DNA from: an uncultured Brachyspira sp.
GTDB lineage: Bacteria; Spirochaetota; Brachyspiria; Brachyspirales; Brachyspiraceae
NCBI GenBank assembly: GCA_934725655.1
Contig: CAKVCJ010000153.1
Location: 1 to 5,131, forward strand
Direction of reading: 5' to 3'
Length of the DNA: 5,131 nt
A program made the position numbers and the translations under genes. Positions 1 to 5,131 of the stretch are shown here, piece by piece; the stretch's first letter is position 1; the number at the start of each line of letters is the position of its first letter. Below the pieces are notes generated by a model. The model saw only the letters and a program-made list of their open reading frames with translations. It was not told the DNA's origin and searched no databases.

Positions 1-442
1 CATATTTTACCACACCTAAAAAATCATTTTTTATTTTTACTCTATCAACCTCTCCAATATATCCAACATCTTCCATAAGAACTCCATCTCTATCCAAAAA
101 TAAAGCCTTATTAATTTTTTTATTTGCATCTGGAATATATAAAGGAATGCCGTATAAATTGCCGTTATTAAATGCTTCATCTATAACCAAATTAAAACTT
201 TCATCATACTCAATAACTTTATTATCATAAGCAATTAAATTTGATATAGAATATCCAGACAATGGATTTTGAATATTATCTTTTATTATTTTATAGTTAT
301 CGTCTATCGTATATAATTTATTTTCATTATTAAAATCAAATGTAAGCCCAACAACTACCGAATTATTATTTTTTAAATTATTGTAAAACGAAAGAAAAAA
401 ACTTTTTATTTTATTAAAAATTGCTTTATCAAAATTACTCAT
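1..442 (-). CDS. HAD-superfamily (HAD-IIIA, GmhB-like) phosphatase with N-terminal extension, C-terminus cut off by window edge
   Basis: Reading the minus strand from the ATG at 442-440 gives 147 residues with no stop before the window edge. Residues 113-123 read ALFLDRDGVLM: the hydrophobic strand plus DxDG of HAD motif I, with Asp117 the expected nucleophile and Asp119 the general acid. The following ED-GYIGEVDRVKI resembles heptose-bisphosphate phosphatase (GmhB) and histidinol-phosphatase members of subclass HAD-IIIA, which remove phosphate from small sugar phosphates. Motifs II-IV lie outside the window, so the substrate is open. Family members normally begin at motif I, but here about 112 residues precede it (Asn-, Lys- and Tyr-rich, no signal peptide or clear membrane segment) and I do not recognise them. 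The start is the first possible one, because an in-frame TGA lies at 466-464. There is no Shine-Dalgarno motif. The gene is divergent from ppdK. HAD assignment is good; GmhB-like function is only suggested. Confidence 0.8.
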   Translation of the reverse strand, partial: MSNFDKAIFNKIKSFFLSFYNNLKNNNSVVVGLTFDFNNENKLYTIDDNYKIIKDNIQNPLSGYSISNLIAYDNKVIEYDESFNLVIDEAFNNGNLYGIPLYIPDANKKINKALFLDRDGVLMEDVGYIGEVDRVKIKNDFLGVVKY

Positions 443-454
443 AGCTAATAATAT

Positions 455-460
455 ATTATA
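455..460 (-). promoter_or_regulatory. possible -10 box for the HAD gene
   Basis: On the minus strand, TATAAT lies 12 nt before the ATG at 442. No good -35 hexamer sits 16-18 nt upstream; a TTGAAA is only 12 nt away. In such AT-rich DNA a perfect -10 can occur by chance, so this is tentative. If it is used, the mRNA leader would be only about 5-7 nt long, which fits the absence of a ribosome binding site. Confidence 0.35.
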
Positions 461-550
461 GTTTCATTAATATTTCAAATTTTAATAAATCAAACATTCA
501 AAAATCTGTTTTTTAAATATTACTTTTTTCATCATTTGCTTTAATAAAAA

Positions 551-578
551 TTGACAAGAATAAAAATAAAACTATACT
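551..578 (+). promoter_or_regulatory. sigma-70 type promoter of ppdK
   Basis: A perfect -35 box TTGACA (551-556) is followed by a 16-nt spacer and the -10 box TATACT (573-578, five of six matches to consensus). Transcription would begin near 585, giving a 5' leader of roughly 70 nt before the ATG at 658. The leader is A/T-rich and shows no convincing hairpin or riboswitch. It is the strongest promoter match in the window, in keeping with high expression of the glycolytic gene it precedes. Confidence 0.7.
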
Positions 579-646
579 ATATATATAAGAAAAAATTTAT
601 ATTTATTAAAAAATGTAAACAAAAAAATTATCAAAATAACAACAGT

Positions 647-651
647 AGGAG
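647..651 (+). promoter_or_regulatory. Shine-Dalgarno site of ppdK
   Basis: AGGAG (within TAGGAGA) lies 6 nt upstream of the ATG at 658. It fixes the start codon and is the only strong ribosome binding site visible in the window; the other two gene starts lack one. Confidence 0.9.
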
Positions 652-657
652 ATTATC

Positions 658-3600
658 ATGGCAACAAAAAAGATGGTTTACTTCTTTGGTAATGGTAAAT
701 CTGAAGGAGCTAAAGAGACAAAAGCATTATTAGGCGGTAAAGGTTTAGGACTCGCTCAAATGACAGAAAGTAAAGTACCTGTTCCAGCAGGTTTTACAAT
801 TACAACAGAAGTATGTGATTATTATTCCAAAAACAAATCATACCCTAATGGATTAGAAAAAGCTGTAGATGAAAACATCAAAAAATTAGAAAAGGCTATG
901 GGAATGGAGTTTGGCAATGCCGACAAGCCTCTTCTTGTATCTGTACGTTCTGGTGCTGCTATATCTATGCCTGGTATGATGGATACAATACTTAATCTTG
1001 GAATAAACGAAAATGTAGTTAATGGAATCATTAAAAAAACTAATAATCCAAGATTTGCTTGGGACGCTTATAGAAGATTCATACAAATGTTCGGCGATGT
1101 AGCTATGGGCGTGGATCATGACAAATTCGAAGAAATCCTTGATGAAAGAAAAAAAGCTATAGCACCAAAAATTGGAAAAGCTGAAAAAGAAGTTAAAGAC
1201 ACTGATTTGGATGTTGAAGAATTAAAAGTGGTAGTAGAAAAATATAAAGCTATGTATAAACAAGAAATGGGCGAAGCTTTCCCTGATGACCCTAAAGTAC
1301 AATTATGGCATGCTATTAATGCTGTATTTAGAAGCTGGAACAACCCAAGAGCTGAAGCATACAGAAAATTAAATGATATAAGAGGGCTTTTAGGTACAGC
1401 TGTAAATGTTCAAGCTATGGTATTCGGTAATATGGGAGATACTTCTGCTACTGGTGTATGTTTCTCTCGCAACCCTGCTACTGGCGAAAACAAATTCTAT
1501 GGAGAGTTTTTAATTAATGCACAAGGTGAAGATGTTGTTGCTGGTATTAGAACTCCTCAAGAAATTACATTAGAGGGAAGTAAAGAATGGGCTAAAAATA
1601 ATGGTAAAAGCGAAGAAGAAAGAAAAGCTAAATACCCTTCTCTTGAAGAGGTTATGCCTGAAGTATATAAACAATTGGTAAGCTATAAAAATCAATTAGA
1701 AAAACATTATAAAGACATGCAGGATATGGAGTTTACAATACAAGAAGGCAAACTTTACATGCTTCAAACTCGTAATGGTAAGAGAACTGCGGCTGCTGCT
1801 GTAAGGATTGCTGTTGAGCTTGCTGAGGCTAAAATTATTTCAAAAGAAGAAGCTTTAATGAGAGTTAATCCTGCTGATTTGGATCAATTGCTTCACCCTA
1901 TGTTTGACCCTAATGCTAAAAAGACTGCTAAAGTACTTGCTAAGGGTTTAAATGCTTCTCCTGGTGCTGCTGTTGGTAAGGCTGTATTTGCTGCTGAGAT
2001 AGCTGAGGCTATGAAAGAGGCTGGCGAATCTGTTATACTTATTCGTATAGAGACTAGCCCTGAAGACATTAAGGGTATGAATGCTGCTGAAGGTATATTA
2101 ACTGCAAGAGGCGGTGCTACTTCACATGCTGCTGTTGTGGCTCGCGGTATGGGTAAATGCTGTGTTGCCGGATGCAGTGAATTAGACATTGATTATAGTC
2201 AAAAACTTATGAAAGTTAACGATACCACAGTTCGTGAAGGCGATTATATTTCTATAGATGGTTCCACTGGTGAGGTTATGCTTGGACAGGTTACTACCAA
2301 AGAGGCTGATATGTCTGAAGACTTTAGAAAACTTATGCAGTGGGCTGATGAAATTAGAATAAAAAATAAATTCGAAGTGCACACTAATGCTGATACTCCT
2401 AATGATGCTCAAATCGCTAGAAAATTCGGTGCTGAAGGTATTGGTTTGTGCCGTACTGAGCATATGTTCTTTAATGCTGACAGAATTAAAAGCGTAAGAC
2501 AGCTTATACTTGTTGCTGAAGAAGTGAAGCAATTAAGAGAAAAATTGGAAGAATCTAAAAAGGTAGGTAAAGCAGATTTAGTTGAAGAGATAGAAAAACT
2601 TTACAAAGAACCAAGAAAACTTTATGATGATGCTTTAGATAGTTTATTCCCTATGCAAATGGAAGACTTTGTGGGTATATTTACTGCTATGGACGGTTAT
2701 CCTGTAACAGTTAGACTTCTTGACCCGCCTTTGCATGAGTTTATTCCTCATGAAGATTCTCAATTACAAGAGCTTTCTAATGAAATGAATGTTCCTTTTG
2801 AAAAACTCAGAACTATTAGAGATTCTTTACATGAGTTTAACCCAATGCTTGGACACAGAGGCTGCCGTCTTGGTATCACTTACCCAGAAATCTACGATAT
2901 GCAAGCAAGAGCTATAATAGAAGCTGCTGTTAAAGTTAAGAAAAACGGCGTAGATGTTCACCCTGAAATAATGATTCCTCTTGTTGGTACTCTAAAAGAG
3001 CTAAAAATGATAAAAGAGAGAATTATCAAAATAGCTGATGAAGTATTCTCTAAAGTTGGAGACAAAGTTGCTTATAAAGTTGGTACTATGATAGAGGTTC
3101 CAAGAGCTGCTTTAGTTGCTGATAAGATTGCTACAGAAGCTGAGTTCTTCTCATTTGGTACTAATGACTTAACTCAAATGGGAGGCGGTTTCTCAAGAGA
3201 TGATGCTGGTAAGTTCTTAAAAGATTATGTTGATAAAGAAATATATGAAAAAGATCCTTTCCAATCATTAGACCAAGAGGGTATTGGAGAATTATTAAAA
3301 ATTGCTGTTACTAAAGGAAGAGCTGCCAACAAAAAACTCACTGTTGGTATATGCGGTGAGCATGGAGGCGACCCTGCTACTGTTATGTTCTGTTATGATA
3401 TCGGACTTAACTATGTAAGCTGTTCTCCTTACAGAGTACCTATTGCTAGACTTGCTGCTGCTCAGGGTATAATTAATGCTTCTTCAAAAAACAAAAAAGT
3501 AAGTGTTAAAAAAGAAGTTAAAAAAGCAGCTAAAACTGTAAAAAAAGAGATTAAAAAAGATGCTAAAAAGGCAGCTTCTACAGTAAAAAAAGCTTCAAAA

Positions 3601-3711
3601 GATGTAAAAAAAGCAACTAAAGAAATAAAGAAAGTTGCTAAGGCTGTAAAAAATACTGTTGAAAAAGAAGTAAAAAAAGCTGTGTCAAAAAAAACAAGCT
3701 CTAAAAAATAA
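658..3711 (+). CDS. ppdK: pyruvate, phosphate dikinase (PPDK) with lysine-rich C-terminal tail
   Basis: PPDK (EC 2.7.9.1) is a cytosolic enzyme that reversibly converts ATP + phosphate + pyruvate to AMP + PPi + phosphoenolpyruvate, and in anaerobes often works in PPi-linked glycolysis. The 1017-residue protein shows an N-terminal ATP-grasp domain (about 1-375: GGKG with Lys28, SVRSGA with Arg97, MEFTIQEG with Glu358, LQTRNGKR with Gln370/Arg372). The phosphohistidine domain has GGATSHAAVVARG with catalytic His490, preceded by Thr488, the position regulated in plant PPDK. The C-terminal PEP/pyruvate barrel has Arg599, Arg686, Glu813, Asn836 and Cys899 (GICGEHGG), matching Clostridium symbiosum Arg561, Arg617, Glu745, Asn768 and Cys831. 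It is longer than the usual ~875 residues because of an insertion near 305-333, a charged helical insertion near 618-655, and a 77-residue Lys-rich tail from 941. Gly842-Gly843 replaces the usual Thr-Phe. All key residues are intact, so it is probably active. Its own promoter and terminator suggest a monocistronic unit. Confidence 0.97.
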   Translation: MATKKMVYFFGNGKSEGAKETKALLGGKGLGLAQMTESKVPVPAGFTITTEVCDYYSKNKSYPNGLEKAVDENIKKLEKAMGMEFGNADKPLLVSVRSGAAISMPGMMDTILNLGINENVVNGIIKKTNNPRFAWDAYRRFIQMFGDVAMGVDHDKFEEILDERKKAIAPKIGKAEKEVKDTDLDVEELKVVVEKYKAMYKQEMGEAFPDDPKVQLWHAINAVFRSWNNPRAEAYRKLNDIRGLLGTAVNVQAMVFGNMGDTSATGVCFSRNPATGENKFYGEFLINAQGEDVVAGIRTPQEITLEGSKEWAKNNGKSEEERKAKYPSLEEVMPEVYKQLVSYKNQLEKHYKDMQDMEFTIQEGKLYMLQTRNGKRTAAAAVRIAVELAEAKIISKEEALMRVNPADLDQLLHPMFDPNAKKTAKVLAKGLNASPGAAVGKAVFAAEIAEAMKEAGESVILIRIETSPEDIKGMNAAEGILTARGGATSHAAVVARGMGKCCVAGCSELDIDYSQKLMKVNDTTVREGDYISIDGSTGEVMLGQVTTKEADMSEDFRKLMQWADEIRIKNKFEVHTNADTPNDAQIARKFGAEGIGLCRTEHMFFNADRIKSVRQLILVAEEVKQLREKLEESKKVGKADLVEEIEKLYKEPRKLYDDALDSLFPMQMEDFVGIFTAMDGYPVTVRLLDPPLHEFIPHEDSQLQELSNEMNVPFEKLRTIRDSLHEFNPMLGHRGCRLGITYPEIYDMQARAIIEAAVKVKKNGVDVHPEIMIPLVGTLKELKMIKERIIKIADEVFSKVGDKVAYKVGTMIEVPRAALVADKIATEAEFFSFGTNDLTQMGGGFSRDDAGKFLKDYVDKEIYEKDPFQSLDQEGIGELLKIAVTKGRAANKKLTVGICGEHGGDPATVMFCYDIGLNYVSCSPYRVPIARLAAAQGIINASSKNKKVSVKKEVKKAAKTVKKEIKKDAKKAASTVKKASKDVKKATKEIKKVAKAVKNTVEKEVKKAVSKKTSSKK
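3478..3708 (+). other. lysine-rich, histone-H1-like C-terminal tail of PPDK (residues 941-1017)
   Basis: The catalytic core ends at the usual PPDK terminus (RVPIARLAAAQ, then GIIN to residue 940). The remaining 77 residues contain 31 Lys and only 7 Asp/Glu, with the rest mostly Ala, Val, Thr and Ser. From about residue 966 a seven-residue rhythm appears: VKKASKD, VKKATKE, IKKVAKA, then VKNTVEK. Each begins with Val/Ile, followed by Lys pairs and small residues. This suggests a cationic amphipathic helix like bacterial H1-type or PhaF-type tails. The coding DNA carries several A7 runs and one A8 run (3687-3694). The frame stays open and joins the core without a break. Its role is unknown; binding to DNA, RNA, polyphosphate or an acidic partner is inference. 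Confidence 0.9.
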
Positions 3712-3732
3712 TCTTTTATCTTTATAACTTTT

Positions 3733-3766
3733 AGCCTGTGTGCATATCAGCATGCAGGCTTTTTTT
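3733..3766 (+). terminator. intrinsic terminator of ppdK
   Basis: An 11-bp stem (3733-3743 with 3750-3760, including two G-T wobble pairs) closes a 6-nt ATATCA loop and runs straight into seven T residues (3760-3766). It begins 21 nt after the ppdK stop. The T tract is only on the plus side, so it should act in one direction and end the ppdK transcript. Confidence 0.92.
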
Positions 3767-3796
3767 GTATACTAAAAACTATCTCAAGCTAAAAAA

Positions 3797-3885
3797 TGCA
3801 GTTCTTCGCGAAGCGTATCCTTAGGATATAAGGTTCTTTGTGCCAACAAAAGAACTGGGGCGTGGGGCAAAAGCCACCACAAATA
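3797..3885. repeat. GC-rich palindromic intergenic island A (probable dispersed repeat)
   Basis: This stretch is clearly richer in G and C than its surroundings and holds four successive inverted repeats. They are the perfect palindrome CTTCGCGAAG (3804-3813); TATCCT/AGGATA around one base (3816-3828); GTTCTTTGT/ACAAAAGAAC with one extra base (3833-3841 with 3846-3855); and a 7-bp GTGGGGC stem with an AAAA loop and one bulged A (3862-3880). No start codon with a ribosome site or long frame fits, and short frames on either strand end quickly. It resembles intergenic elements I associate with Brachyspira, but only one copy is in the window, so repeat status is inferred. Confidence 0.5.
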
Positions 3886-3947
3886 ACAATTTAAAATATA
3901 TTTCACCTTAAAACTTTTCAGTATATATTGAAACAATAGTTTTCTAT

Positions 3948-3991
3948 CAACTTTTCCCCGCAGCTACGCGGTGCGGACTTCGTCAAAGTTG
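3948..3991. repeat. GC-rich structured intergenic island B (branched hairpin, probable dispersed repeat)
   Basis: Outer arms CAACTTT (3948-3954) and AAAGTTG (3985-3991) enclose two smaller hairpins: CCGC/GCGG with loop AGCTAC (3958-3971; alternatively CCGCA/TGCGG, 3958-3962 with 3972-3976) and GAC-TTC-GTC (3976-3984). Together they can fold as a three-way junction. There is no T tract after it, so it is not a plain terminator. Its GC content contrasts sharply with the flanks. It may be a mobile or dispersed repeat or a structured RNA; I cannot tell which. Confidence 0.45.
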
Positions 3992-4153
3992 CAAAAAGTG
4001 CAAATATTTTTATTTTACATGTTGAAATATGTATAAAACAAGTATATTTTTAGATAAAAAATATAGAATTTACTAAAGCGTATTTAAAGAATATATAGTA
4101 TTAGACATTCAAAACATAAAAACTAAATTATTATGATAAGCTTAAAAATTTTA

Positions 4154-4181
4154 TTTACAAATAAAAAATATAAAATATAAT
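4154..4181 (+). promoter_or_regulatory. promoter of the PHP phosphatase gene, possibly giving a leaderless mRNA
   Basis: TTTACA (4154-4159, five of six matches to the -35 consensus) is followed by a 16-nt spacer and a perfect TATAAT (4176-4181). Only 6 nt separate the -10 box from the ATG at 4188, so a start site at the normal distance would fall on or beside the start codon. There is no purine-rich ribosome site in the preceding 20 nt, which agrees with leaderless translation. AT-richness makes chance matches possible. Confidence 0.55.
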
Positions 4182-4187
4182 AACAAT

Positions 4188-5015
4188 ATGAATTATATAT
4201 CAAACCTCCACACCCACACCATCTATTGCGATGGTAAAAACACTATAGAAGAAAATATATTATATGCAATAGATAAAAACTTTATAAGCTTAGGCTTCTC
4301 TGGGCATTCTTATCTCCCTTTTGATAAGGCAGCTATGTCTAAAGAAAATACAATTAAATATTTGGAAGACATAAAAAAATTTAAAGAAATATATAAAGAT
4401 AAAATGCAGATATATGCAGGCATAGAAGCAGATTACTATTCAAACTTAAATAAAAACACAGATAAAGAGATGATGTTAGATTATAGAATAGGCTCTGTAC
4501 ATTTTATACAAGATGATGAAAATAATTATTTTTCTATAGATTCCTCAAAACAAAATTTTGAAAATACATTAAAATATTTTGGAAACATTAAAGAAGTTGT
4601 ATTAAGATATTATAATAATCTAATAGATATGATAAATAATCAAAAACCAGACATTATAGGACATTTGGATTTGATTAGAAAATATAACTTTAATAAAGAA
4701 TATTTTACAGAAGAAGAAAATTGGTATATAGAGAAAGTTGATGAAGTATTGGAAGTGATAAAAAAATCAAACTCTATAGTAGAAATAAATACAAAAAAAA
4801 TGAATAAAACTAATTTAAACGCTCACTATCCAAATAATGATACTATAAAAAAATTATTAAAATTAAATATACCTATTACAATAAATACAGATTCACACTC
4901 TGCAAATGCTTTAGATTATTTTTATTATGAAATGTCAGAAAAACTAAAAAGTTTTGGATGCAGCAAAATAAAAATGCTTATAGATAACTCATTTAAAGAT
5001 ATAATCCTAAATTAA
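4188..5015 (+). CDS. hisK: PHP-family phosphatase, histidinol-phosphatase (HisJ/HisK) type
   Basis: The 275-residue protein has the usual length and full motif set of the HisJ/HisK branch of the PHP superfamily, metal-dependent cytosolic phosphoesterases. The family reaction is L-histidinol phosphate to L-histidinol plus phosphate (EC 3.1.3.15). Expected metal ligands and active-site residues are visible in order: NLHTHTIYCDG (His8, His10, Asp15), GFSGHS (His40), GIEADYY (Glu80), GSVHFI (His105), IGHLDLI (His159), VEINT (Glu199) and NTDSHS (Asp235, His237). The start is supported because family members begin just before the HTH motif. No ribosome site precedes it, while a TATAAT lies 6 nt upstream. 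No other histidine gene is in the window, so a different sugar- or metabolite-phosphate substrate is possible. Codon use is more AT-biased than in ppdK. An A8 run at 4793-4800 is a potential slippage point. The stop codon touches that of the convergent flagellar gene. Confidence 0.88.
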   Translation: MNYISNLHTHTIYCDGKNTIEENILYAIDKNFISLGFSGHSYLPFDKAAMSKENTIKYLEDIKKFKEIYKDKMQIYAGIEADYYSNLNKNTDKEMMLDYRIGSVHFIQDDENNYFSIDSSKQNFENTLKYFGNIKEVVLRYYNNLIDMINNQKPDIIGHLDLIRKYNFNKEYFTEEENWYIEKVDEVLEVIKKSNSIVEINTKKMNKTNLNAHYPNNDTIKKLLKLNIPITINTDSHSANALDYFYYEMSEKLKSFGCSKIKMLIDNSFKDIILN

Positions 5016-5131
5016 TTAAACGTATTTTTCCATTTGATTATAAATAATTTCTGCCAAACCAAATGTTTTAGTTTTAGAGAACTCTTTAGCATATTCATCA
5101 TATAGCATATCTTCAAATATCTCTTCTGCCA
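5016..5131 (-). CDS. flgJ: C-terminal end of FlgJ-like flagellar rod-binding protein (N-terminus outside window)
   Basis: The minus strand reads 37 residues ending in TAA at 5018-5016. They begin AEEIFEDMLYDEYAKE and end GLAEIIYNQMEKYV. This matches the C-terminal end of the FlgJ N-terminal rod-binding domain: a hydrophobic/acidic helix with a DxxxYDEYA-type core, then a GLAexIYxQ helix. The domain caps or scaffolds the growing flagellar rod in the periplasm. Spirochaete versions commonly consist of this domain alone, without the C-terminal muramidase of enterobacterial FlgJ, and the stop here right after the domain fits that. The call rests on a short segment, so another protein with a similar helix cannot be excluded. 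The gene converges on the PHP gene with no spacing, and no terminator is visible. Confidence 0.72.
   Translation of the reverse strand, partial: AEEIFEDMLYDEYAKEFSKTKTFGLAEIIYNQMEKYV

Follow-up and report, generated by a model that had tools for sequence, protein, structure and literature searches.

Pyruvate phosphate dikinase (PPDK) is the step that links phosphoenolpyruvate (PEP), ATP, AMP and pyrophosphate (PPi) in many anaerobes. We examined a PPDK gene carried by a 5,131-nucleotide stretch of DNA from an uncultured Brachyspira sp. (assembly GCA_934725655.1, contig CAKVCJ010000153.1, positions 1 to 5,131; hereafter the window), whose product is a PPDK of the canonical kind with a histone-H1-like tail, a feature that is real, conserved and recurrent. 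Canonical PPDKs (TIGR01828; structures 2x0s, 9pzl and 1kbl) are homologous to the window protein over the full length of its core and share its invariant H490 and C899, but nearly all of those parsed end 4-12 residues past the last core motif, whereas the window PPDK adds 81 lysine-rich residues. Comparable extensions are known from other proteins. The lysine-repeat C-termini of actinobacterial topoisomerase I are said to give high processivity (PMC7398561); the substrate of that enzyme, however, is DNA, whereas PPDK works on small molecules. In E. coli, lysine-rich regions of RNase R and YihI are described as binding a polyanion (PMC12345225), and RNase R of a close relative of the window genome (G015) also has a lysine-rich end, but the E. 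coli proteins are not central metabolic enzymes. The histone H1-like family HC2 (PF07382) has a lysine-rich basic repeat like that of some PPDK tails; unlike HC2, the PPDK tail belongs to a metabolic enzyme.

The gene is a single open reading frame (ORF; 658-3711, + strand) of 1017 amino acids. Its product scores 1311 bits with the equivalog model TIGR01828, above the cut-off of 843, and contains the three PPDK domains: the nucleotide-binding one (PF01326, PPDK_N), the mobile His domain (PF00391, PEP-utilizers) and the PEP-binding one (PF02896, PEP-utilizers_C). H490 and C899, which we take to be the catalytic His and Cys, are unchanged across all 50 PPDKs aligned, and the top structural relatives of the core are PPDK structures, the three named above among them. 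The core is 9.3% lysine with a net charge of -15. An initial annotation, made from the sequence alone, had described an in-frame, strongly positive tail of 77 residues, about 40% lysine, after a complete PPDK core. This description was borne out: residues 941-1017 (3478-3708) contain 31 lysines (40.3%) and have a net charge of +24, and over all the residues that follow the core, which ends at 936, the lysine content is 38.3%. The tail lysines are encoded by 28 AAA and 3 AAG codons in a low-GC, A-rich tract, and the alternative frames across the tail contain 8 and 10 stops. In an AlphaFold2 model based on the alignment of 50 PPDKs, the core is confident (pLDDT mostly >80) and its last helix extends up to residue 966; pLDDT is <50 over residues 961-1017, and this part of the tail is therefore predicted to be unfolded in isolation. 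The resemblance to PhaF-type phasins raised by the same annotation found no backing, phasin families being absent among the Pfam matches of the window protein or its tail up to E=1. The tail (3466-3708) also gave a weak NCBIfam match (21 bits, E 7e-5; cut-off 1783) to the model NF011492 for valyl-tRNA synthetase, which probably reflects only composition, through the lysine-rich end of that model.

In nearly all close relatives the tail is neither absent nor frameshifted, a check set in advance by the initial annotation: it is in frame in 24 of the 25 Brachyspira genomes that have a PPDK (26 were searched; the 2.0-Mb assembly G021 gave no PPDK match). In 23 of the 26 the PPDK is intact with an in-frame tail of 51-85 residues, counting one (L083) whose contig ends after 80 tail residues, and in G022 the C-terminus, with a tail of 51 residues, sits on a separate contig (L108). 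In G012 both core and tail contain frame breaks, and the tail peptide is present but split among three frames; since the tail breaks lie in a stretch rich in A-runs of 6-8 bases, we read them as homopolymer indel errors. The tail is also in frame in P0001, the one sequence read from a B. pilosicoli cluster of 109 members. All of the 120 protein matches listed in one search are tailed (59-85 residues, 37-42% lysine); the top-120 lists of this and two further searches were ranked with the tail included in the query and so favour tailed proteins. By Nei-Gojobori counting, which is rough for sequence so compositionally biased, the dN/dS of the tail is below 1 (0.04-0.60) in 31 of 33 within-group species pairs and not computable in the other two, where the tail has no synonymous change; in the same 33 pairs the core gives 0.02-0.13. 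Each tail lysine codon is one substitution away from a stop, and clear tail loss was not seen in Brachyspira. The in-frame conservation and the dN/dS values rule out a frameshift or an annotation artefact.

PPDKs with such tails are also found outside Brachyspira. The draw from the phylum to which G001 belongs comprised 296 genomes, and 221 of them have a PPDK match (E<=1e-100). Of 102 non-Brachyspira PPDKs read in the phylum, 78 extend 4-18 residues beyond the core and 24 extend 33-163, no length falling in between, and all 24 long tails are lysine-rich (22-42%). The proportion 24/102 is a biased rate, as 20 of the loci were picked for long reading frames (16 of these are tailed); among the 80 loci fetched otherwise, 7 of the 78 readable are tailed. 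The 102 also include L191, the nearest Brachyspira outgroup, and three more close loci, none of which has a long tail. Left out were three of 128 loci that had no C-terminal motif (L195, L250 and L255), G083, which runs off its contig, 18 listed non-Brachyspira PPDKs skipped at regular steps, and the genomes below the listed matches. In a quick tree of the core C-terminus, with SH-aLRT as the support measure and without bootstrap, the tail state changes at least 12 times, and 8 of these changes are forced by branches with SH-aLRT >=95. The tailed PPDKs among the matches listed carry the label Treponema and nine non-spirochaete labels (Chitinispirillaceae, Rhodothermaceae, Syntrophaceae, Smithellaceae, Myxococcota, Bacteroidales, Prevotellaceae, Planctomycetaceae and Edwardsbacteria); some of these labels may be wrong, because many tailed PPDKs come from metagenome bins. 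In a prokaryote genome collection, 76 of the 78 PPDK loci parsed from the best 80 matches stop 4-12 residues past an RVPxARLAAAQ-like motif (one of them, L054, is truncated by the contig end), in agreement with the earlier statement that PPDKs normally end a few residues past RVPIARLAAAQ; the two exceptions are one Brachyspira and one Bacteroidales locus (31 residues, 12 lysines). When six further PPDKs were scanned for HC2, four matched at E<0.01 (P0121, P0147, P0146 and L306), and only L306, from G177 and with a tail of 163 residues, cleared the curated cut-off (63.4 against 40 bits); P0001 and P0116, the kinds nearest to the window, had no match. Judged from these sequences, the tail is a recurrent accessory on a minority of PPDKs. 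A trait confined to Brachyspira is ruled out by the tailed PPDKs elsewhere in the phylum and under other-phylum labels.

The Brachyspira tails follow two designs. In the pilosicoli-type tails, hydrophobic residues recur with a period of 99-100 degrees, which corresponds to an alpha-helix (3.6 residues). For the tails of the window, L081 and L082, not one of 500 shuffles matched this periodicity, and it is weaker in the related tails L101 and L103 (global P 0.026 and 0.064). The Val/Ile-led heptads of the initial annotation thus correspond to a real hydrophobic periodicity, better called a 100-degree one. Six hyodysenteriae-type tails showed a best repeat of 69-72 degrees (significant in five), close to a five-residue AKKPA unit, without a helical moment, and the one Treponema tail tested likewise had a 73-degree repeat and no helical moment; many tails of these two kinds contain proline. 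Across the tails compared, position, charge and rough length are kept, unlike sequence and, probably, fold; this speaks for electrostatics rather than for a specific fold.

We asked whether such an end is special to PPDK. The scan of G015 covered 1.59 Mb out of about 2.7 Mb and 1356 reading frames. By the lysine content of the last 40 residues (42% in PPDK, with a mean of 10.5% over the frames), PPDK ranks second among them, so that its lysine-rich end is not due to chance. The most lysine-rich C-terminus (45% over 40 residues) is that of a pseudouridine synthase (PseudoU_synth_2 and S4 domains; L155:5764-6819, + strand). The other lysine-rich ends identified belong to RNase R, CarD, Lon, aspartate-semialdehyde dehydrogenase (L152:9945-11042, + strand) and a class II aldolase (L173:2678-3376, - strand), the last two being short; PPDK is therefore not the sole tailed metabolic enzyme. 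A protein query with the tail alone against G001 returned no match, an empty answer that shows nothing. Enolase served as a control. In the non-Brachyspira genomes with a tailed PPDK, all 21 readable enolases (of 24 genomes; G239 gave no match, G105 and G259 no motif) end 20-28 residues past KYNQ/KYNR, without a lysine tail. Frame length alone is ambiguous here, as 14 of 150 listed enolase frames reach 464 residues, three of them in the tailed-PPDK genomes G198, G101 and G169, and reading the C-termini of those long frames revealed no tail. In Brachyspira, enolase frames measure 435-437 residues in 17 of 18 listed genomes and 454 in G021, and the loci L326 and L328 have no tail (L327 and L330 were picked up in a different frame and left out of the count). 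The PEP-protein phosphotransferase paralogues of Brachyspira are mostly 582-612 residues long. Matches resembling PTS enzyme I lie in 1076-residue frames in G025 and G026, against about 590 in most other genomes; these are possible fusions.

Published protein data bear on where PPDK is found in the cell. Casas et al. (2016) compared soluble with trypsin-released proteins of frozen and thawed Brachyspira cells (PMC4955376; raw data PXD003900). Their spectra for PPDK, which are not size-normalised, number 171 soluble and 2476 trypsin-released in B. pilosicoli (ratio 14.5) and 600 and 1184 in B. hyodysenteriae (ratio 2.0; PMC4955376). By this ratio PPDK ranks second of the 25 proteins listed for B. 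pilosicoli and third of the 27 for B. hyodysenteriae (PMC4955376). Above it stand a chemotaxis receptor alone or, in B. hyodysenteriae, such a receptor and a lipoprotein; ribosomal L2 follows directly after PPDK in both species, and enolase is last in B. pilosicoli (PMC4955376). Table 4 of that paper, the 20 most abundant surface-specific proteins, includes Lon and CarD (PMC4955376); in G015 these two proteins end in lysine-rich stretches. PPDK is thus particulate or unusually cell-bound in two Brachyspira species, by a cause that these data do not give. The word "lysine" does not occur in the main text of the paper (PMC4955376), and in a search of the open-access literature, with hits judged by title and the start of the abstract, we recognised no paper describing a PPDK lysine tail.

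The pyrophosphate metabolism of Brachyspira may give such a location some weight. Matches to soluble pyrophosphatase (PPase) of family I and of family II were found in 0 of the 26 Brachyspira genomes each, and membrane PPase in 23, which makes PPDK plausibly the main soluble PPi user there. Outside Brachyspira we compared the 24 tailed with the 78 untailed genomes in four-cell tests, which ignore shared ancestry. Family II PPase was present in 15/24 against 27/78 (p=0.019), family I in 1/24 (a weak partial match) against 8/78 (p=0.68), and membrane PPase in 14/24 against 59/78 (p=0.12). A general role of the tail as a stand-in for soluble PPase is unsupported, the tail going with family II and showing no link to family I, and so is a link between tail and membrane PPase across the phylum.

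Aminoacyl-tRNA synthetases release AMP and PPi, and PPDK combines both with PEP to give ATP. With this in mind, the account that we favour, tentatively and at somewhat less than even chances, is that the tail acts as an unfolded electrostatic tether holding PPDK on nucleic acids, the site at which AMP and PPi would be released for recycling. The lysine-rich tail would give PPDK an electrostatic hold on RNA, on ribosomes or on the nucleoid, and the tethered PPDK would convert back to ATP the AMP and PPi that synthetases and polymerases would set free there. We infer that nucleic-acid binding would be tail-dependent and H1-like; the tail would be the cause of the cell binding, nucleic acid the partner and PPi/AMP recycling the gain. 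In favour of this account stand the in-frame conservation and low dN/dS of the tail in Brachyspira, a charge that is kept as the sequence changes, the recurrence of lysine-rich tails on distant PPDKs, the HC2 matches of some of them, the lysine-rich ends of RNA- and DNA-acting proteins in G015, the tail-less enolases, the cell-bound PPDK of the published fractionation and the lack of soluble PPase matches in Brachyspira. Several observations weigh against it. The window tail had no HC2 match up to E=1, tail-less PPDKs are the majority in the phylum (78/102), and in G015 the plain metabolic enzymes aspartate-semialdehyde dehydrogenase and class II aldolase are lysine-tailed as well. The association with family II PPase runs opposite to expectation. 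PPDK is not in Table 4 of Casas et al. (PMC4955376), and the fractionation data fit membrane binding equally. In Treponema denticola, PPDK (TDE0844), whether tailed or not, forms band 1 among the 16 major proteins of the envelope (PMC3931704). The main rival, which we consider rather unlikely, is that the tail attaches to the anionic cytoplasmic membrane from the inside and places PPDK beside the ion-pumping membrane PPase. It draws on the T. denticola envelope band, on the release of PPDK by trypsin, in which it is outranked only by a chemotaxis receptor and, in B. hyodysenteriae, also by a lipoprotein, on the strong amphipathic-helix periodicity of the pilosicoli-type tail and on the frequency of membrane PPase in Brachyspira, but the other tails tested have no helical moment and many contain proline, membrane PPase is in fact less frequent in tailed than in untailed genomes outside Brachyspira, and ribosomal L2 fractionates much like PPDK. 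We prefer nucleic acid to membrane because of the H1/HC2-like make-up of several tails, the RNA- or DNA-acting tailed proteins found alongside and this similar behaviour of L2.

Likewise doubtful, though worth weighing, is the reading of the tail as an extension of low complexity, neutral or general-purpose (for solubility or charge balance, or from slippage at AAA repeats), with no specific partner. Its repeat-like sequence, the frequent change of length between species (51-85 residues), its scattered presence in the phylum, the A-rich tract and the lysine-rich ends of a few other G015 proteins would all fit. Such an extension, however, accords poorly with a dN/dS below 1 in 31 of 31 computable pairs, with an open frame in nearly all Brachyspira PPDKs although a single change can turn any lysine codon into a stop, with the lysine-rich composition of every long tail outside Brachyspira and with the tail-less enolases of the same genomes. 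Binding of inorganic polyphosphate, which would regulate or place PPDK, has precedents in the E. coli proteins YihI and RNase R (PMC12345225) and in lysine-rich sequences of EngA and SrmB reported to bind polyphosphate in Pseudomonas (PMC12077175). The PASK motif is defined as at least 15 of 20 residues D/E/S/K including one K (PMC12345225), but the best stretch of the window tail reaches 13 of 20. PPK1 and PPK2 were each matched in 0 of the 26 Brachyspira genomes (PPK1 had 122 positives in the 296-genome draw, which contains them), so that polyphosphate is an unlikely partner there, and outside Brachyspira PPK1 does not track the tail (10/24 tailed, 34/78 untailed, p=1.0); we regard this explanation as very improbable. 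A coiled-coil or amphipathic oligomerisation element seems to us hardly probable at all. The 100-degree periodicity of the window tail and its close kin and the predicted prolongation of the last core helix speak for it, but a net charge of +24 over 77 residues would disfavour self-association, pLDDT is low from residue 961, and the tested tails of the hyodysenteriae type and from Treponema lack the helical periodicity. A tether to DNA or RNA, to polyphosphate, or to an acidic protein or membrane surface had been offered in the initial annotation, as had an oligomerisation aid. A tether to an anionic surface fits the conserved charge, the unfolded prediction and the published fractionation, with polyphosphate unlikely as that surface in Brachyspira, while a coiled-coil role fits the pilosicoli-type tails and no others tested. 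A broader form of the nucleic-acid tether, which we put forward as more speculative, is that many lineages independently gave PPDK a histone-like tail for on-the-spot recycling of AMP and PPi from translation, transcription and replication, so that carbon flux would be coupled to macromolecule synthesis by location.

The features of the locus are collected in the table below. A promoter scan of 450-4200 gave 18 sites against 13.9 expected from shuffles, and the promoter-like site is for this reason weak evidence; terminator-like sites numbered 4 against 1.8 expected. Since these two elements flank the gene and the next + strand ORF of at least 60 residues downstream begins only at 4188, the PPDK gene looks monocistronic. 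The spacer at 3780-4060, after the terminator-like hairpin, is repeated many times in G015 (more than 40 partial blastn matches among the first 60 rows, at about 69-100% identity) and, on these matches, is an interspersed Brachyspira repeat. The ORF at 4188-5015 (+ strand) encodes a PHP-domain protein (PF02811), presumably a histidinol-phosphatase-like phosphoesterase. At the other end of the window, an open-ended frame of 147 residues (2-442, - strand) had no Pfam match at E 1e-5 and contains LFLDRDGVL, which we take to resemble HAD phosphatases.

Table. Coordinates of the PPDK gene and its flanking signals in the window
Feature	Position	Strand	Evidence
Promoter-like site, TTGACA - 16 nt - TATACT	551-578	+	11/12 consensus positions match
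PPDK catalytic core, residues 1-936, last motif RVPIARLAAAQ	658-3465	+	TIGR01828, Pfam domains, solved structures
Lysine-rich C-terminal tail, residues 937-1017, 81 aa, 31 K	3466-3708	+	Composition; AlphaFold2 pLDDT
TAA stop codon of the PPDK gene	3709-3711	+	Sequence
Intrinsic-terminator-like hairpin and T-run, 3' of the PPDK gene	3733-3760	+	11 pairs, 6 GC

If a lysine-rich tether sets the location of PPDK, the site at which PPi is made or used would matter in Brachyspira and other bacteria in which no soluble pyrophosphatase is recognised. That one enzyme has gained or lost the tail in so scattered a way amounts to a natural experiment, in which tailed and untailed sister species, such as those of L266 and L261/L264 on the tree, can be compared. 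PPDK thus allows a direct test, in a single protein, of a long-standing question, namely whether central metabolism is coupled in space to translation or to the nucleoid.

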